From assembly GCA_020723325.1 (NCBI GenBank), contig DYJD01000011.1, positions 77,373 through 141,372 on the forward strand: a DNA stretch of 64,000 bases, read 5' to 3'. Of this stretch, positions 9,302-16,576 are shown in pieces. This stretch comes from Desulfosudis oleivorans. Its GTDB lineage: Bacteria > Desulfobacterota > Desulfobacteria > Desulfobacterales > SURF-7. The translations under genes were made by a program, and so were the position numbers. The notes beneath the pieces were generated by a model, which did no database searches, was not told the DNA's origin, and saw only the letters and a program-made list of their open reading frames with translations. Every line of letters starts with the position of its first letter. Position 1 is the stretch's first letter.

Positions 9302-10558
9302 TCAATATAATGTTTCAAAAACTTCCCAGAAATTGGGAAAGGATTTTTCCACGCACATCTCATCTAAAATGCGAATTCCCGGAGTCACCAACCCGGCCAG
9401 GGCAAAGCTCATGGCCATGCGGTGGTCCTTGTAAGTTTCGATTTCAGCACCATGGGGACGGCCGCCCAGGATGCGCAGGCCGCTTTCCGTGGCGCTTGCC
9501 GAAATGCCCATTTTTTGCAGTTCCTTGGCCACGGAGCCCAGGCGGTCGCTTTCCTTTTCCTTTAAATGGGCCACGTTTTTAATGATGGTGGTGCCTTTGG
9601 CAAAGGCGGCCGTAACGGCCAGGGTAGGGACCACATCCGGCATGTCGGCCATGTCCACTTCAACCGCGGTCAAGGCACCACCGGTCACGGTGATGCCGTC
9701 GGCCTCCTGATCCACCCGGCAGCCCATTAGTTCCAGAACTTTGGCAAAGCGCACATCCCCTTGCTGCGAGGAAAAATCAATGCCGCGCACCTTGATGCTT
9801 GCGCCGGTGATGGCGGCCGCGGCCCAGAAATATCCGGCCTGGGAGGCATCCGGTTCCACAATGTAATTGCCTGGGCGATAACATTGTCCGCCGTCCACAT
9901 GATAAAAGGTATCGCTTTTCTTTTGAGTGACAACACCCAGGCGGGACATGATGTCCAAAGTCATGTCAATGTAAGGCCTGGAAACCGGACCCTGGGTCAC
10001 GGTAATGTCCAGACCGTTTTGGGTATAGGGGGCGATGAGCAGCAGGGCTGAAAGATACTGACTGCTGACATGGCAACGAATGGATACCGGTCCGCCAGCC
10101 GGCCGTTTGCCGGTGATTTCCACCGGCGGGCAACCATTGGCCTGGATGGAGCGCGCCTTAACGCCCAGTTGTGTTAGGGCGTCCAGCAAATCCTGGATGG
10201 GACGTTGGCCCATACGTTCTGTTCCGGTCAAGGTGCAAACACCGTTGCCGAGCACTGCCACGGCGGTTAAAAGCCGCATGGAGGTTCCGGAATTGGCCAG
10301 ATAAATCGGGGCAGGGGAGCGGCCCAGGTACCCGGCCGTGCCCGGGACTGAGACAATCCCACCAGTATCCTGGATGGCAACGCCCAGGGCCTGCAAGGCC
10401 TTGAGGGTCAACAAGGTATCTTCACTCCGCAACAAATTGCCGATGGTGCAAGGTCCATCAGACAGGGCCGCAGCAATCAGCAAACGATGACTATAACTCT
10501 TTGATCCCGGCACCGTCACAGAGGTGTTCCGGATCGCGATAGTTCTAATTTCTTTCAT
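9302..10558 (-). CDS. aroA: 3-phosphoshikimate 1-carboxyvinyltransferase (EPSP synthase)
   Basis: About 418 residues from the ATG at 10558; a TTG three codons further upstream is an alternative. Family landmarks are the N-terminal PGSKSYSHRLLIAAAL, LANSGTSMRLLTAV, GTERMGQRPIQDLLDAL, the DMPDVVPTLAVTAAFA segment, LKEKESDRLGS and TYKDHRMAMSFAL. It transfers the enolpyruvyl group of PEP to shikimate 3-phosphate, the penultimate shikimate-pathway step. It is the last gene of the five-gene aromatic operon, 25 bases after aroE. The decamer CTTTAG(N)TCA occurs twice in this junction. Confidence 0.97.
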   Translation of the reverse strand: MKEIRTIAIRNTSVTVPGSKSYSHRLLIAAALSDGPCTIGNLLRSEDTLLTLKALQALGVAIQDTGGIVSVPGTAGYLGRSPAPIYLANSGTSMRLLTAVAVLGNGVCTLTGTERMGQRPIQDLLDALTQLGVKARSIQANGCPPVEITGKRPAGGPVSIRCHVSSQYLSALLLIAPYTQNGLDITVTQGPVSRPYIDMTLDIMSRLGVVTQKKSDTFYHVDGGQCYRPGNYIVEPDASQAGYFWAAAAITGASIKVRGIDFSSQQGDVRFAKVLELMGCRVDQEADGITVTGGALTAVEVDMADMPDVVPTLAVTAAFAKGTTIIKNVAHLKEKESDRLGSVAKELQKMGISASATESGLRILGGRPHGAEIETYKDHRMAMSFALAGLVTPGIRILDEMCVEKSFPNFWEVFETLY

Positions 10559-10583
10559 AATCCACAACTTTAGCTCACTTTAG

Positions 10584-11408
10584 TCACTTGTTTAATGCCC
10601 CCAGTACCACCTCCCGCATCAGCTCCGACGGCGCCTTAAGCCCGGTCCACATTTCGAACTGAGCCACGCCCTGATACACAAACATGGCCACGCCGTCAAC
10701 AACGCGGCAGCCTTTTTTTTCAGCCTGGGCCAGCAGCTTGGTTTTGAGTGGATTGTAAATGATATCCATTACTACTTTGTCCGGTTTCAGATCTTCGGCC
10801 TTTACCGGCATGGCTTCCGTATCCGGTGACATGCCCACTGGGGTTGAATTGATGAGAATATCATAATCCAGGGAGGGGAATTCAGATAAATGATAATATT
10901 TCACTCCCAATTCAGCCGCCAGGTTGCGGCCTTCATCTTCCAAAATATTGGCAATGGTCAAATGCCCGCCCTGGGCCAGAATACCATGGCCGATGGCCCG
11001 GCCGGCGCCGCCAGCCCCCAGCAGCACTACTTTTTTCCCCTGAATAGGCGTTTTTTGCAGCAAGGCGTTGATGGCGCCCAGACAGTCGGTATTATATCCG
11101 CCCAAACGGCCGTCGGCATTGACCACCGTGTTGACGGCCCCGATTTTCAGCGCCATCTCGTCAATATAATCCAGATGTTTCATGACGGTGATTTTATGGG
11201 GAATGGTGACGCTGAAGCCCTTGATTCCCAACGCGCGCATGCCCGTGAGGGTGGCCGCCAAGTCCTTGACCTGAAAAGCAAGATAAGCGCCGTTGTAGCC
11301 GGTTTCCTGAAAGGCGCGGTTGTGCATTACGGGGCTCAGGCTGTGGGAGACAGGATCGCCGATTACGCCGTAAAGAATGGTTTTGGAGTTGATTTGAATT
11401 GGGTTCAT
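10584..11408 (-). CDS. aroE: Shikimate dehydrogenase (NADP)
   Basis: 274 residues, standard for AroE. The substrate-binding start YGVIGDPVSHSLSPVMHN, the catalytic Lys/Asp context FSVTIPHK and YNTDCLGA, and the Rossmann glycine motif VVLLGAGGAGRAI are all present. DIIYNPLKTKLL follows late in the protein. It reduces 3-dehydroshikimate to shikimate. It sits between pheA and aroA in the operon, with a 37-base gap upstream that includes a short AT-rich heptamer run. Confidence 0.97.
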   Translation of the reverse strand: MNPIQINSKTILYGVIGDPVSHSLSPVMHNRAFQETGYNGAYLAFQVKDLAATLTGMRALGIKGFSVTIPHKITVMKHLDYIDEMALKIGAVNTVVNADGRLGGYNTDCLGAINALLQKTPIQGKKVVLLGAGGAGRAIGHGILAQGGHLTIANILEDEGRNLAAELGVKYYHLSEFPSLDYDILINSTPVGMSPDTEAMPVKAEDLKPDKVVMDIIYNPLKTKLLAQAEKKGCRVVDGVAMFVYQGVAQFEMWTGLKAPSELMREVVLGALNK

Positions 11409-11445: not shown

Positions 11446-12561
11446 TCACTGGTCATCACCAGGCACCGCTTGGGGATAAGAACCAAGTATTTTCACAAAT
11501 CGGCAAAGTTTCTCCATGTGGTCAACCGTGGCGCGAACACTGGGTTCCTCCAAATGGCCTTCCAGGTCCACAAAAAAGAAATAGCTCCAGTTTTTATGTT
11601 TGGAGGGCCTGGATTCCAGCTTCATCATATTGATGCCGGCCTTGGCAATGGGCTCCAGGACCTTGTGCAAGGCGCCGGGCACATGGGGGGCTGAAAACAT
11701 GATGGAAGTTTTGTCCTTGCCGGTGGGCTTTGTGTTTTCCTTGCCGATGATCAGAAAGCGGGTGGTGTTTTTGGCAAAATCTTCGATCTTGGAAGCCACC
11801 ACCTTCAGGTTGTAAAGCCTGGCTGCTTCGGCGCCGGCAATGGCCGCTGCCGCCTTGGTTTCCGCGGCCTTTTTTGCTGCCGCGGAAGTGCTGCTGCATT
11901 CTTCTAGGGGAACATCCGGCAGATGCTTGCGCAGCCACCTACGGCATTGACCGAATGGCTGGGGATGGGAATAGACGATCTTGATGTCTTCCATGGCTCC
12001 GCTGACGGAAAGTAGTTCATGGGAAATGGTCAGGTAGTTTTCAGCGCAAATCTTGAGATCCGACTCGAAAAAAAGGTCCAGGGTATAGTTCACCGAACCT
12101 TCTATGGAGTTTTCCACCGGCACGACACCATACCGGCCCAGACCTTTTTCCACATCAAAAAATACGTCCTGGATGCTGGTCTGGGGCATAAAGGTGGCTG
12201 AACGGCCGAAATGGTTCATGGCCGCCATATGGGTAAAAGTCGCTTCCGGACCGAGATAGACGATGCGCAAGGGCATTTGCATTTCCCGGCCGGCGCAGAT
12301 GATATCCGTAAATATATTCACCAGGGCCTGTTTGTCCAAAGGCCCTTGATTGTTTTCACATAAGCGCCTGAGGATCATGGCCTCGCGATCCAGTCTGGGA
12401 ATTTCTTCCTTCTGTTCGCGTTTAAGCAGGCCGATCTTTTGGGCAACGGACATGCGCCGGTTGAGCAACGCCAGCAATTGGTCATCCAGGCTGTCGATGG
12501 TCTGACGCAATGATTCCAGACTTTCTTCCTGACCAAAGGGCTTTTCCATCGTGTTGTTCAT
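11446..12561 (-). CDS. pheA: Bifunctional chorismate mutase / prephenate dehydratase (P-protein)
   Basis: 371 residues in the usual three parts. An AroQ-type mutase helix bundle occupies about residues 10-95 (LRQTIDSLDDQLLALLNRR). The prephenate dehydratase follows from about residue 97 (RIVYLGPEATFTHMAA, VPVENSIEGSVNYTLDL, with the catalytic Thr in KNTTRFLIIG). A C-terminal ACT domain (VPGALHKVLEPIAKAGINM then LESRPS) binds phenylalanine for feedback control. It converts chorismate to phenylpyruvate. It starts 9 bases after the DHQ synthase II gene, so its expression follows the leader attenuator. Confidence 0.97.
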   Translation of the reverse strand: MNNTMEKPFGQEESLESLRQTIDSLDDQLLALLNRRMSVAQKIGLLKREQKEEIPRLDREAMILRRLCENNQGPLDKQALVNIFTDIICAGREMQMPLRIVYLGPEATFTHMAAMNHFGRSATFMPQTSIQDVFFDVEKGLGRYGVVPVENSIEGSVNYTLDLFFESDLKICAENYLTISHELLSVSGAMEDIKIVYSHPQPFGQCRRWLRKHLPDVPLEECSSTSAAAKKAAETKAAAAIAGAEAARLYNLKVVASKIEDFAKNTTRFLIIGKENTKPTGKDKTSIMFSAPHVPGALHKVLEPIAKAGINMMKLESRPSKHKNWSYFFFVDLEGHLEEPSVRATVDHMEKLCRFVKILGSYPQAVPGDDQ

Positions 12562-12570
12562 GGCTGGAAC

Positions 12571-13563
12571 CTATTTTTCCATTATGGTTTCCTCGATTTT
12601 ATGACCGAAATGTCGACCGCCGGCCTCAATCGCCACCAAAACCTTGTCACCTGCCTTCAGGCCCACCACGGATATGGGATCGCCTTCCGGAGTGGTCAGA
12701 CGAATGGTTTCCGCATTCTGCAGGATGGTGGTGACGGTTTCCTGGCCGACCTTGGCGGTGACCAGCATCATCGGACGTTTCTCAATCTTCAACCGGCCCA
12801 CGATACCGATGCTGGAACGCCCTTTAAAGTCGGTAATCAGAATCTGGTCCCCGGCCGCCAGCTCGGAGAGGTAACGGGTTTTGCCGCCGGGCACGCGGGT
12901 ATAGGCATGCACCGCCCCGGCATTGACCCGAAAAGGCCGCGGGGAAACATAGGGGTTTGAAATGCTTTCCGAATGCACCAGGAAAAGGGTTTTGCTGCTA
13001 TTGCCCACCAGCATGCCTTCCCCGATGTTCATGGCCGTGCAAGTGTCCACACATACCCGATCCCCCATTCCCACGGGGGTCACTGCCGTGATCTCGGCGA
13101 TTTCCAGGGCCGTCTGATCTTCATTGGCGCGCAATTTGGTGAGAGCGCTCTTTAAGGCCGAAGCATCTTGGGTATGAAACAGAATGTGATTCACACCTTT
13201 TTCCAATATTCCAAAGGCGATTTGGGCCTCCTCCAGATTTTTCACCTGGGCGATGACATCGGCTTTTTTGGCAATCAGGTTTTCCAGGGGAATAATGGTC
13301 CAGTCCGTGCATTCCAGGACTACTTTTTTGGACCGACTGAGGCTCACGATTTCAGCCTCATCCGCTCCGCTCTTGATGGTGAAAAAAATCACATCCTGGC
13401 CCGGTTTTAAATCGCCATCTTCGGCAATGGTTTCAATACGGCCGAGTTCTTTTACTTTTTCAGAAAACCCCTTGGGCACCATGATGCCGTCGGCTCCGCC
13501 TTCCAAGGCAGTGGTGACCAGTTCCTTGTCCCAAGGATCGACTTTTACCCAGATTTTGCGCAT
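12571..13563 (-). CDS. 3-dehydroquinate synthase II (archaeal-type AroB')
   Basis: 330 residues. The family start K-VDPWDKELVTTALEGGADG and the segments GMGDRVCVDTCTAMNIGEGMLVGNSS and RPFRVNAGAVHAYTRVPGGKTRYLSEL identify it. In methanogens this enzyme oxidatively deaminates and cyclises ADH (2-amino-3,7-dideoxy-hept-6-ulosonate) to 3-dehydroquinate, replacing the DAHP route and classical AroB. It lies directly after its partner ADH synthase. No classical aroB or aroF/G/H is in the window, though either could be elsewhere. Confidence 0.93.
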   Translation of the reverse strand: MRKIWVKVDPWDKELVTTALEGGADGIMVPKGFSEKVKELGRIETIAEDGDLKPGQDVIFFTIKSGADEAEIVSLSRSKKVVLECTDWTIIPLENLIAKKADVIAQVKNLEEAQIAFGILEKGVNHILFHTQDASALKSALTKLRANEDQTALEIAEITAVTPVGMGDRVCVDTCTAMNIGEGMLVGNSSKTLFLVHSESISNPYVSPRPFRVNAGAVHAYTRVPGGKTRYLSELAAGDQILITDFKGRSSIGIVGRLKIEKRPMMLVTAKVGQETVTTILQNAETIRLTTPEGDPISVVGLKAGDKVLVAIEAGGRHFGHKIEETIMEK

Positions 13564-13627: not shown

Positions 13628-14428
13628 TTATTCCTTCAACATCTCCAAGGCGTCCGCAACATTCGCGCCTTCATGGACAATGGCCGACATGGCCTGCACC
13701 ATGCGGGTGGGATTGCGGTGCTGAAAAACGTTCCTGCCGATGGAGATACCGGCGCCGCCTGCGTCAATCGAACCTTTGACCATTTCCAGGATATCCCGGT
13801 CCGAGTCCATTTTTGCCCCCCCGGCAATGACCACCGGAATACCGCAGCCGGCAACCACTTCCTGAAAGCTTTCCGGACTGCCGGTATAGGAAACCTTGAC
13901 AATGTCCGCGCCCATCTCATCCCCCACACGGGCAGCATGCTTGATCACATCCACATGATACTCATCCTTGATTTTTTCGCCCCGGGGATACACCATGGCC
14001 AACAGGGGCATGCCCCAGGTGCGGGCTTCATAGCTCACCCGGCCGAAGTCCCGAAGCATTTCCCTTTCCTGGCTGTCACCCAGGTTGACATGGATGGAGA
14101 CGCCGTCCGCGCCTAGTTTGATGGCTTCCTCCACGGAACAGACCAGGGTTTTGGTATGGGGATAGGGCGAAAGGTTAGTGGAGGCGGATAAATGAATGAT
14201 CAAGCCGATGTCCCGGCCGCTCTTGCGGTGGCCGCCGCCCACAAGCCCTTTATGCTCCACAATGGCGTTGGCCCCGCCCTCGGCAACTTTTTGCACGGCC
14301 GCCTTGATGTCGATGACGCCGGGGATAGGCCCAACTGAAATGCCGTGGTCCATGGGTACGATCACGGTCCTGCGGGTGTTGCGGTTGATGATACGTTCCA
14401 TTCTGATTTGTTTGCCGATGATGGTCAT
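13628..14428 (-). CDS. 2-amino-3,7-dideoxy-D-threo-hept-6-ulosonate (ADH) synthase, archaeal-type AroA'
   Basis: 266 residues with a class I aldolase-like barrel: [52 protein letters not shown] with the Schiff-base Lys, and [12 protein letters not shown]. In the archaeal pathway it condenses L-aspartate semialdehyde with 6-deoxy-5-ketofructose 1-phosphate. It is the first gene of the aromatic operon and has a strong ribosome site (CAGGAGGAATC) directly before the ATG. The long leader upstream encodes an aromatic peptide and attenuator hairpins. FBP-aldolase relatives share the fold, but linkage to DHQ synthase II settles the assignment. Confidence 0.93.
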
Positions 14429-14479: not shown

Positions 14480-14525
14480 GAAAGAAATGAAAAGGCCGCG
14501 TGTTGTCTCTTAACCCCGCGGCCTT
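14480..14525 (-). terminator. Attenuator terminator (segments 3 and 4)
   Basis: On the minus strand AAGGCCGCG (14525-14517) pairs with CGCGGCCTT (14500-14492), a 9-bp GC-rich stem, followed by TTCATTTCTTTC. Its position between the leader peptide and the first structural gene makes it a regulated terminator. The U-tract is interrupted, so strength is moderate. Confidence 0.75.
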
Positions 14526-14613
14526 GAAAAATTTGAAAGCCGTGAGGTTTTGATCTGCTCACGGCTTTTTCGCTTATGTTGTATTGTTCGGTATCAGCGC
14601 ATCAGCCAGGCAG
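14517..14613 (-). promoter_or_regulatory. Attenuator alternative-pairing region
   Basis: Four segments can pair in exclusive ways (minus strand). Segment 0, CTGCCTGGCT (14613-14604), overlaps the end of the leader peptide and can pair with segment 1, AGCCGTGAGCAG (14566-14555). Segment 1 can instead form an 11-bp stem with segment 2: AAAGCCGTGAG (14568-14558) against CTCACGGCTTT (14546-14536). Segment 2 can instead pair, through CGGCTTT, with AAGGCCG of segment 3, which would disrupt the terminator. A ribosome stalled on aromatic codons leaves segment 0 free (0:1, 2:3, read-through). A ribosome at the stop codon covers segment 0 (1:2, 3:4, termination). The pairings are seen in the sequence; the switching logic is inference. 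Confidence 0.7.
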
Positions 14614-14676
14614 ACCGGTACTAAAATAATAGTACCAAAAGTAGAAATAAAAAAATCTGCCTGCAATTGCTTTCAT
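14602..14676 (-). CDS. Aromatic-rich leader peptide of the aromatic operon
   Basis: A 24-codon frame from ATG at 14676 to TGA at 14602: MKAIAGR, then FFYFYFWYYYF, then STGLPG. Eleven consecutive codons specify Phe, Tyr or Trp (5 F, 5 Y, 1 W... counted as F,F,Y,F,Y,F,W,Y,Y,Y,F). A ribosome site AGGAAGGA with a nearer AGGA lies upstream at 14683-14697. It lies between a promoter-like site and overlapping hairpins and precedes five aromatic-pathway genes. All of this is the architecture of an attenuation leader such as trpL or pheL. The peptide itself is probably degraded; its translation is the signal. Confidence 0.88.
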   Translation of the reverse strand: MKAIAGRFFYFYFWYYYFSTGLPG

Positions 14677-14711
14677 TACGATTCCTGATTCCTTCCTGAT
14701 TTTTTTTGCAA

Positions 14712-14737
14712 ATAGTATAATGGTGGATGCTTGTCAA
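14712..14737 (-). promoter_or_regulatory. Probable promoter of the aromatic operon
   Basis: On the minus strand a perfect TTGACA (14737-14732) is followed by an AT-rich segment ATTATACTAT that supplies a -10 (TATACT or TACTAT) at a short 12-14-base spacing. Transcription would start a few tens of bases before the leader peptide. The short spacing is the weak point. Confidence 0.5.
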
Positions 14738-14863: not shown

Positions 14864-15901
14864 TTAGGGACCTGTAACTGCTTTTGGATTCAAGTCCCGC
14901 TCCAGTTTCTGAAGGTTGACCACTTCTCCCACGGCAATCAAGGTATCGCCGCTACGGATGATGGCTTCAAATGAGGGGTTAAAAACCATGGAACCACTCT
15001 GCGCCTCTTTAATCGCAATGACGATCAGGTTGTATTTCTGGCGAATGCCGGAGTCCTTGAGGGTCAGATTCACCATGGCGGATGAATTGCTGACCGGTAT
15101 TTCCTCCATTTGAATGTGGCTGCGCCTGTGGGTAAAGGCAAGATCCATGAAACTCGTCACCGTGGGACGCAGAATGCGCTGGGCCATGGTGGCGGCCCCC
15201 ATCTCATAAGGCGACTCCACGTAATTGGCGCCGGCGGCCTTGAGTTTGGCCTTGGCCGAGTCCCGGCCGGCCCGGGCGATGATATTCAGCTCAGGATTCA
15301 GTTGATGGGCGGTGAGCACCAGAAATACATTATCCGTATCCGTGCCCAAGGCCGCCACCAGACCTTTGGCCCGCTCAATGCCGGCCCTGCGCAGGACCGC
15401 TTCATCCGTGGCGTCGGCGGAGATATAGACAATACCGTCGGCCTCCATCATGGGGATGTGTTCCGGATTACTGTCGATGACCACCAGATTGGGAAACTTG
15501 GAACGGATGCTTTCACATAAAACCCGGCCGATGCGGCCGTAGCCGCAGATGATGTAATGGTTCTTGGAACGGTCGATCTTTTTATCCAATCTTCTCCTCC
15601 CCAAAATAATGCGGATGCGGCCTTCCACCATGAACTGGATGACGGCGCCGGCTACGTAGGCGCTCAGGCCCACTCCCAATAACACCAGAACAATCGTAAA
15701 AATCCGGCCGGTGAGATCCAGGGGATGCACTTCGCTGAAGCCCACCGAGGCGATGGTGATGACGGTCATATACAGGGCGTCCATAAAGCCCCAACCCTCC
15801 AGGACCATATAACCTACCGTGCCGAGGACAATGATGCACAGAATCAGCAGGGATGAAACCTGAAGATGGCGGGTGGTTTTTATTTCTGGAATAATGTTCA
15901 T
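14864..15901 (-). CDS. Potassium channel protein with TrkA-N/TrkA-C (RCK) domains
   Basis: 345 residues. Two membrane helices flank a pore loop, TVITIASVGFSEVHPL, with the selectivity filter at about residues 52-56. The RCK N-domain begins with HYIICGYGRIGRVL (glycine motif at 120-125) and ends in the acidic VVIDSNPEH. A TrkA-C domain fills the C-terminus (from about 250). Such channels form tetramers in the inner membrane, with cytosolic RCK rings gated by nucleotide or Ca2+. The filter has Ser-Glu where TVGYGD-type channels have Gly-Asp. It is divergent in function from the aromatic operon and ends 7 bases short of the cyclase gene's stop. Confidence 0.9.
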   Translation of the reverse strand: MNIIPEIKTTRHLQVSSLLILCIIVLGTVGYMVLEGWGFMDALYMTVITIASVGFSEVHPLDLTGRIFTIVLVLLGVGLSAYVAGAVIQFMVEGRIRIILGRRRLDKKIDRSKNHYIICGYGRIGRVLCESIRSKFPNLVVIDSNPEHIPMMEADGIVYISADATDEAVLRRAGIERAKGLVAALGTDTDNVFLVLTAHQLNPELNIIARAGRDSAKAKLKAAGANYVESPYEMGAATMAQRILRPTVTSFMDLAFTHRRSHIQMEEIPVSNSSAMVNLTLKDSGIRQKYNLIVIAIKEAQSGSMVFNPSFEAIIRSGDTLIAVGEVVNLQKLERDLNPKAVTGP

Positions 15902-15907
15902 GGGGAT

Positions 15908-16576
15908 TCATTTTTGCCGTTGGTCGTTCAGGAGCGCCACGGCGCGCACAGGCGAGCCGTCGGCATCCTGTAAGGGCAAGGGAAAACAGACGAACAGAAA
16001 CCGCTGCGCTCCCAGCAAGTCCAGATTGGTCAGGTTTTCGATAATAAGGCGGTCTTGACCGAGAAAGGCCTTGTGGATGGGATAATCGTGGGAATTCATC
16101 AGGTCTGCCGAGACAGTATCCATTCCAACCCCTTTCAGATCAAATTGAATCAACCAATCCGCTGCTGCCGGGGACAATACCGGATAGTCCCTGAAATAGC
16201 GTTTCCGGCCCCAGTATTTGCTCCAACCAGTATTCAACAACAGGAAATCATTCCCGTGGATTTGCTGCTTAAATGGCATGAGGTCCTCCATTTCAATGAA
16301 TTTCCCAGGGAGGAACTTCAAGCCGATGCATATACCTGTACCATAAAATCGATTGATGGGCAATAGATCCAATGTCTTGGCCCCTTGCAGGATATGGGCG
16401 GGGGCATCCAAATGCGTGCCGGTGTGGGAAGTAATGAGAATTTTCTTTTCCTGAAAACCATCCGAAGGGATTTGGGCAATGTGGGTCAAACATGGCTGGT
16501 CCGTGCCTGGATACACCGGCATATCCGGCCCGATGGGATGGCTTAAATCAACCGCCTGCTGAAAAATATCGTCCAT
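15908..16576 (-). CDS. Cyclase-family metal-dependent hydrolase (kynurenine formamidase-like)
   Basis: 222 residues. The signature HTGTHLDAPAH lies at residues 51-61; its His and Asp residues bind the metal. LSHPIGPDMPVYPG at the N-terminus and VGMDTVSADLMN fit the same family (Pfam Cyclase). Members hydrolyse formyl-kynurenine, isatin or related amides and lactones. No tryptophan-catabolism gene is adjacent, so the substrate is open. It precedes the K+ channel gene by 6 bases and is probably co-transcribed with it. Confidence 0.87.
   Translation of the reverse strand: MDDIFQQAVDLSHPIGPDMPVYPGTDQPCLTHIAQIPSDGFQEKKILITSHTGTHLDAPAHILQGAKTLDLLPINRFYGTGICIGLKFLPGKFIEMEDLMPFKQQIHGNDFLLLNTGWSKYWGRKRYFRDYPVLSPAAADWLIQFDLKGVGMDTVSADLMNSHDYPIHKAFLGQDRLIIENLTNLDLLGAQRFLFVCFPLPLQDADGSPVRAVALLNDQRQK

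Follow-up and report, generated by a model that had tools for sequence, protein, structure and literature searches.

A conserved aromatic leader peptide and a putative six-segment attenuation relay upstream of the ADH synthase operon of Desulfosudis oleivorans

What controls the entry of RNA polymerase into an archaeal-type aromatic operon in a bacterium is the question raised by this locus of Desulfosudis oleivorans. In the analyzed stretch of 64,000 nucleotides (hereafter, the window) five genes lie on one (minus) strand downstream of two GC-rich hairpins. They encode 2-amino-3,7-dideoxy-D-threo-hept-6-ulosonate (ADH) synthase (13628-14428; TIGR01949, 365 bits, over the cut-off of 299), 3-dehydroquinate synthase II (12571-13563; NF002627), chorismate mutase/prephenate dehydratase (pheA, 11446-12561; NF008865, TIGR01807), shikimate dehydrogenase (aroE, 10584-11408; NF001319) and EPSP synthase (aroA, 9302-10567; TIGR01356). 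An earlier note on this DNA had described the region before the first gene as a transcription attenuator with an aromatic leader peptide. The same-strand ORF upstream of the leader ends at 14864, and an arylformamidase-like protein is encoded two genes upstream of the leader (15908-16576; TIGR03035, 82 bits, below the cut-off of 223). Trp genes inside the operon were considered as a possible reason for the Trp codons of such leaders; a TrpE-like gene was found within ~6.2 kb in 1 of the 30 ADH synthase loci with at least 5.2 kb of downstream sequence. At the second ADH synthase gene of the same genome (L230), located directly behind another ORF, neither hairpins nor a leader were seen.

The leader peptide gene (MKAIAGRFFYFYFWYYYFSTGLPG; 14602-14676, minus strand, as are all features below) starts with an ATG at 14676 and comprises 24 codons followed by a stop codon at 14604-14602. 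It contains 11 consecutive control codons (14655-14623) for Phe, Tyr and a single Trp, the composition of which tracks the pathway across a wider family (see below). The start codon is preceded, at a distance of 5 nt, by the probable ribosome-binding site AGGAA (14682-14686). The leader RNA (14690-14480) has a folding energy of −65.6 kcal/mol vs. −45.1 (sd 4.2) for shuffled sequences, none of 200 being as low. Six-codon Phe/Tyr runs as such are not rare, occurring 24 times in the 7.2 Mb genome vs. 38 times for the reversed pattern. The case against a chance origin rests instead on the conservation of the leader in related loci, by which chance is ruled out.

To this end we compiled 110 ADH synthase loci, combining the 30 best matches from 59 whole genomes (a match was present in 45 of them) with the best 80 of 133 named contigs, the two sets being partially overlapping. 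After setting aside four loci with too short an upstream sequence (L044, L066, L073 and L077), an aromatic-rich short ORF (at least four Phe, Trp or Tyr in 11 residues) was found upstream of ADH synthase in 105 of the 106 testable loci, L064 being the sole exception. Merging of identical leaders left 85 distinct ones, 83 of them with at least six such residues; Desulfonema magnum is one of the named carriers, as are contigs labelled Desulfosudis oleivorans and Desulfocicer vacuolatum. Codons for both Phe and Tyr are present in all 85 leaders and Trp codons in 57, being absent from the other 28; hence, judging by codon content, joint sensing of Phe and Tyr would be general among these leaders and the Trp part optional. 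The earlier proposal that the operon is controlled by Phe, Tyr and Trp together is supported, its Trp component applying to 57 of the 85 leaders only. The expectation of a conserved aromatic frame with covarying stems in homologous leaders was borne out by this comparison (for the competing stems, see below), and the earlier description of a 24-codon aromatic leader with a ribosome-binding site and 11 consecutive aromatic codons is confirmed by sequence, RNA stability and conservation. As side observations, the aromatic leader of L070 is shortened by an early stop (VAHNLSGKCYRYFF), and at L097, on a contig labelled Candidatus Falkowbacteria, ADH synthase comes with an aromatic leader and only one hairpin, whose sequence differs; the contig may be mis-binned or the attenuator a different one.

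The promoter was less clear. The TTGACA at 14737-14732 is a probable −35 box with an uncertain −10, and a TTGAC[AT] is found no more than 110 nt upstream of 75 of the 85 leaders, mostly at 55-74 nt (a raw count without a chance control). No good −10 follows the box at standard spacing in the window, and the box is absent from the list produced by a consensus promoter scan of the window. Thus the promoter-like TTGACA noted earlier is present and recurs in related leaders, but a consensus promoter was rejected because of the unconvincing −10.

The RNA from the leader gene to the operon can be divided into six segments with the pairings 1:2, 2:3, 3:4 (hairpin T1), 4:5 and 5:6 (terminator T2). The earlier note had recognized four segments with exclusive pairings. 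Segment 1 (GCAGGCAGA; 14656-14664) pairs with segment 2, as supported by the swap test described below; segment 2 (GGTCTGCCTGGCTGATGCGCT; 14596-14616), which holds the leader stop codon, pairs with segment 3 as supported by covariation. Segment 3 (14552-14574; swap test, covariation and folding) consists of the T1 5′ arm with the preceding AGCG and the CAGATC in the loop, so that the partner of segment 2 is formed by both the 5′ arm and the loop of T1. Segment 4 (14536-14546), the T1 3′ arm, has segment 5 (14513-14525), the T2 5′ arm, as its alternative partner; both are supported by the swap test and covariation, with segment 4 weak in the window. Just before the first gene, where the earlier note had placed a terminator, there are two hairpins, both supported by covariation: the terminator-like T1 (14568-14536, −15.4 kcal/mol) and T2 (14525-14480 including its U-rich tail, −17.7 kcal/mol; the stem-loop spans 14525-14492).

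Across leaders, segment 1 (CAGGCAGA) directly precedes the codon run and segment 2 (GGUCUGCC) directly follows it. In the 65 of 85 leaders that have an exact copy of the segment 2 motif, the median distance from the motif start to the first nucleotide of the leader stop codon is 18 nt, a position that would fit a ribosome covering segment 2. In all these 65 close ADH synthase leaders the motif is in frame 0 (the other 20 have no exact motif). Among 76 other leaders, 39 carry the motif, in frames 0, 1 and 2 in 9, 9 and 21 cases, respectively; since it sits in different reading frames outside the close relatives, the motif appears to be conserved as RNA.

Both hairpins are predicted intrinsic terminators before the first gene, by sequence and alignment, with U-rich tails. 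A consensus terminator scan of the window listed neither, their parsed loops of 11 and 16 nt exceeding its 8-nt limit. Two hairpins were parsed in 72 of the 85 leaders (the parser requires a T-rich tail after T2), and dropping the mis-parsed L070 left the 71 loci used below. Inspection of the 13 unparsed leaders by eye revealed T2 in five (L009, L011, L019, L083 and L093), with T2 absent or degenerate in eight.

We consider it very likely that this region is a ribosome-mediated transcription attenuator which senses the charging of tRNA-Phe, tRNA-Tyr and, in this leader, tRNA-Trp together through a six-segment relay; attenuation as such is the surer part and highly probable, the 4:5 step being probable to a lesser degree. 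The scheme joins elements read from the compared sequences (the leader gene, its conservation, the covariation of competing pairs and the match between codons and pathway) by steps that we infer, namely the stalling of the ribosome, the termination itself, the sequence of these events and the response of the cell. When any of the three amino acids is short, the ribosome would stall in the aromatic run and hide segment 1, leaving segment 2 to pair with segment 3 as an antiterminator that would block T1; the freed 3′ arm of T1 (segment 4) would then capture segment 5 and block T2, and the polymerase would enter the ADH synthase operon. With an ample supply of all three, the ribosome would proceed to the stop codon within segment 2 and mask that segment, so that T1 and T2 would form and transcription would stop. 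Two marks of attenuation are found here, a putative leader gene whose codons specify the amino acids made by the operon and a predicted antiterminator and terminator that exclude each other and covary. With its tri-aromatic run, the leader offers a way to test whether three amino acids are sensed jointly.

The competing pairings were assessed in two ways. In a partner-swap test on 29 cluster representatives of the 71 loci (2000 permutations), segments of the pairings 1:2, 2:3, 3:4, 4:5 and 5:6 fitted better within than across loci (0/2000 permutations each), and the control pairings 1:3, 2:5 and 3:6 were no better within a locus than across. For 1:2, the own pairing averaged −15.1 vs. −13.2 kcal/mol for swapped partners, and 0/2000 was also obtained in the 76 other leaders. 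In an alignment of 55 of the 71 leaders (A1, the basis of the pair counts, with close copies removed by hand), 2:3 is paired in 86.9%, 3:4 in 92.2%, 4:5 in 90.2% and 5:6 in 95.9%, with 5/11, 8/11, 5/11 and 9/12 pairs, respectively, changed on both sides. For 4:5, the count of pairs changed on both sides was matched by 61 of 500 shuffles and the pair types by 66 of 500; no shuffle of 500 was as high in cells paired, cells changed on both sides or covariation score. The control 3:6 shows no covariation in this close set: it is paired in 89.3%, yet its score was reached by 127 of 500 shuffles. Moreover, the same G that forms the C99-G145 Watson-Crick pair of 4:5 in 41 of the 55 leaders is in a G.U pair with column 162 inside T2 in 32 of them.

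Folding calculations place constraints on how such a switch could operate. With segment 1 hidden, equilibrium folding of the full-length RNA loses T1 in 19 and T2 in 6 of the 71 loci, and the window keeps both; a thermodynamic switch in the full-length RNA was therefore rejected, and since equilibrium folding mostly keeps both hairpins, the switch would have to be kinetic, acting during transcription. In truncated transcripts ending before segment 4 and with segment 1 hidden, the binding probability between segments 2 and 3 averaged 0.99 (eight best-paired positions, 71 loci), and the corresponding 4:5 probability in the isolated segment 4-5 stretch was 0.98. The two states are nearly equal in energy, −40.2 kcal/mol for the 2-3 stretch plus 4:5 vs. 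−40.0 kcal/mol for 3:4 plus 5:6 (sums of means over separate stretches, 71 loci). Counting against the model, the ribosome-free equilibrium favors 2:3 over 1:2, with probabilities above 0.5 in 64 vs. 16 of the 71 loci. In the window the 2-3 stretch reaches −23.3 kcal/mol, and its 4:5 pairing is weak (−7.7 vs. a mean of −15.9 kcal/mol), which may make for an inefficient second step in this species.

A covariance model (R1) spanning segment 2 to T2, with the aromatic codon run not included, hit 175 of the 297 genomes of the phylum (E 0.001) and picked out another two strong places in the genome of the window. One of the latter (C101:37596-37731; L231, L161) shows a WWWW leader and the same tandem hairpins before genes in trpE-G-D-C-F order; the other (C76:11291-11422; L232, L162) has a YWWW leader before DAHP synthase and aroB, and the genome therefore has both the canonical and the archaeal-type dehydroquinate routes, under different leaders.

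We read 132 hits, namely the best-scoring of those listed (30 + 60 + 40) and the two places in the same genome, a sample that is not random and contains partly related sequences. An aromatic leader was found in 118 of them, at a score cut-off of 4.5 that was set after seeing the data and was reached by 21 of 460 shuffles (~5%; maximum 6.1). Six had an Ile/Leu/Val or Leu-rich leader, counted at a laxer cut-off of 3.5 that 91 of 460 shuffles reached, and eight had neither. Eight of the 132 are ADH synthase elements from the order of the window, at least five of them rows of A1; their removal leaves 124 hits, 111 of them with an aromatic leader. The genes behind the elements, typed by NCBIfam or Pfam on representatives and by BLAST for the rest, include trpE, trpB-like, trpD, two kinds of DAHP synthase, ADH synthase and shikimate kinase, as well as periplasmic binding proteins, a PaaK-like ligase, an aminotransferase, ilvB and a leuA-like gene.

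Among the hits with an aromatic leader, Trp-dominant leaders were found at 39 of 41 trp genes vs. 0 of 44 genes for Phe, Tyr or the common pathway (ADH synthase, class I-alpha DAHP synthase, shikimate kinase, binding proteins, PaaK and aminotransferase; Fisher p 3e-22, the sequences being partly related). Class I-beta DAHP synthase, kept outside this comparison, has mixed leaders (8 Trp-dominant, 17 Phe/Tyr with Trp, 4 Phe/Tyr only). A WWWW leader at L264 is followed, 352 nt on, by a long ORF that matched none of the sorted gene groups. LivK-like periplasmic binding proteins (L182, L194, L203, L236, L238, L244 and L270; PF13458 in the three that were scanned) have Phe/Tyr leaders without Trp, six of the seven above the cut-off, and perhaps serve aromatic amino acid uptake. 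Phe/Tyr leaders also precede a PaaK-like phenylacetate-CoA ligase (L202, L242 and L250; L202 scores 621 bits, just below the cut-off of 646) and a PRK06836-type aminotransferase (L186, L256, L262 and L267), which suggests that arylacetates or 2-oxoacids are used for making aromatic amino acids. Ile/Leu/Val or Leu-rich ORFs accompanied by tandem hairpins were observed at L195, L227 and L252 (all three ilvB), L266 (leuA-like) and the unclassified L268 and L272; four of the six precede ilvB or a leuA-like gene, some of the scores being individually weak. The ilvB and leuA-like genes fit their ORFs, and use of the tandem-hairpin chassis may extend beyond aromatic amino acids. Overall, it seems fairly likely that these elements form a phylum-wide modular relay family, a main amino acid sensor of Desulfobacterota, in which one chassis (segment 2, T1 and T2) is combined with exchangeable codon runs (Trp; Phe and Tyr; Phe, Tyr and Trp; perhaps Ile/Leu/Val) and the leader codons reveal the function of an uncharacterized gene behind. 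Such codons already suggest functions for the periplasmic binding proteins, the PaaK-like ligase and the aminotransferase.

The strongest competing explanation, albeit an unlikely one, is a simple four-segment attenuator of the trp type, in which 2:3 and 3:4 alone compete and T2 is a back-up terminator with arms resembling those of T1 by duplication. It would account for the U-tract (at least 6 T of 11) that follows T1 in 155 of 167 aligned elements, for the eight of 85 leaders in which a good T2 is missing by eye, and for the weak 4:5 pairing of the window. It also draws on the wider alignments (A3, 75 of 92 hits, with near copies and close ADH synthase elements removed by hand; A4, 37 of the 40 hits below E 3e-9). 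In the 75 elements of other operons and lineages 4:5 exceeds shuffles, but so does the control 3:6, and in the swap test both fit better within loci (own −14.2 vs. −12.6 kcal/mol for 4:5, −12.5 vs. −11.2 for 3:6; we used own-vs-swapped differences, the absolute 2:3 and 2:5 energies being distorted by rows missing a segment). A 3:6 signal is expected there because of transitivity through 3:4, 4:5 and 5:6, and the evidence for 4:5 is weaker in the wide set than in the close one. Against the four-segment scheme, 4:5 covaries in the close set and 3:6 does not, and the G.U asymmetry described above favors 4:5. Furthermore, a T2 once formed would terminate even with T1 undone. Nine of the 167 elements have no U-tract after T1 and would therefore switch only via T2, hence via the 4:5 step. 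All nine have T2 with a U-tract, a feature partly selected since the parser and R1 favor it; the parser did not select for 4:5 pairing, although the consensus sequence is part of R1, and 4:5 in the nine averages −15.3 kcal/mol (range −10.7 to −17.6; the means of the group with a U-tract are distorted by rows missing a segment, so that only this mean was used).

A nascent-peptide arrest of the TnaC or Erm type, in which the leader peptide would sense a free aromatic ligand in the exit tunnel, would agree with a strongly hydrophobic peptide conserved as a class, but it is very improbable given that residue identity and run length vary among Phe, Tyr and Trp with no invariant arrest residues, that the TGLP tail conserved in close relatives corresponds to the RNA motif found in other frames elsewhere, and that codon choice tracks the pathway of the downstream gene. 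Least probable of all is that the leader is translated only to avoid polarity, with the hairpins acting as normal terminators of an upstream transcript, a scheme which the same-strand ORF ending upstream would allow and which the TTGAC[AT] box in most leaders, the covarying competing stems and the pathway-matched codons oppose.

The six-segment attenuator thus preferred can be compared with several known systems. The trpL and pheL leaders of enterobacteria combine a leader peptide containing cognate codons with a competing antiterminator and terminator. The leader described here differs from them in addressing three amino acids at once, in its 11 adjacent codons, in a second terminator and in the operon that it precedes. 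No Rfam leader family reached its gathering cut-off in the window or in 13 loci, the best sub-threshold scores in the latter being 27.7 bits for Trp_leader (cut-off 41; L162, the DAHP synthase element) and 28.6 bits for His_leader (cut-off 49; L079); membership of known Rfam leader families was therefore rejected. The T-box model likewise gave no gathering-score match in the window and none up to E 1 in the 13 loci. In T-box leaders one RNA architecture, which recognizes tRNA directly, is reused for many amino acids and genes. The present family resembles them in this reuse, with the difference that here a ribosome would read the codon run. T-boxes are placed in Firmicutes, Actinobacteria, Chloroflexi and Thermus/Deinococcus in the accessible text of PMC3766115.

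The excerpts available to us name trp and pheA among attenuated operons (PMC1183508), with further examples of attenuation in alpha-proteobacteria (PMC7298713), Actinobacteria (PMC1262725) and Firmicutes (PMC2965389). The family considered here would be a single RNA architecture within another phylum, where the model matched 175 of 297 genomes, its codons fitting the pathway in the hits that were read. According to the same portion of PMC1183508, a control codon region composed entirely of regulatory codons is more sensitive than a mixed design, and the control region of the present leader is of this all-regulatory design. For the operon type itself, Table 7 of PMC1173090 lists a computer-predicted attenuator (Merino web site) before the D. 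vulgaris aroA'-aroB'-aroQ.pheA-aroF-tyrA-trp cluster; the accessible part of that paper gives no leader peptide, amino acid specificity, relay or family, and the word "leader" occurs 0 times in it. The earlier claim that no such leader had been described therefore holds for the leader peptide, of which, as of this attenuator family, we found no description in the literature searched (mostly outside subscription papers), and has to be amended with regard to the attenuator predicted in D. vulgaris.

The closest parallel is the his leader of Salmonella and E. coli, in which, as described in the available sections of PMC4046918 and PMC10989985, the pairings B:C and D:E replace A:B and the E:F terminator. 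As far as these sections go, both leaders share six segments, a two-step relay and an uninterrupted run of control codons, His codons in one and aromatic codons in the other. The counterpart of D:E (4:5) is found in the family, with 3:6 null in the close set, and is weak in the window. Unlike the his leader as presented there, the control run here lies between segments 1 and 2, and T1, the counterpart of C:D, usually has a U-tract of its own, so that termination would not be confined to the last hairpin. Overall, ribosome-mediated attenuation is already known, and what is new is a probable variant attenuator with aromatic codons, a U-tract after T1 and a sequence of its own.
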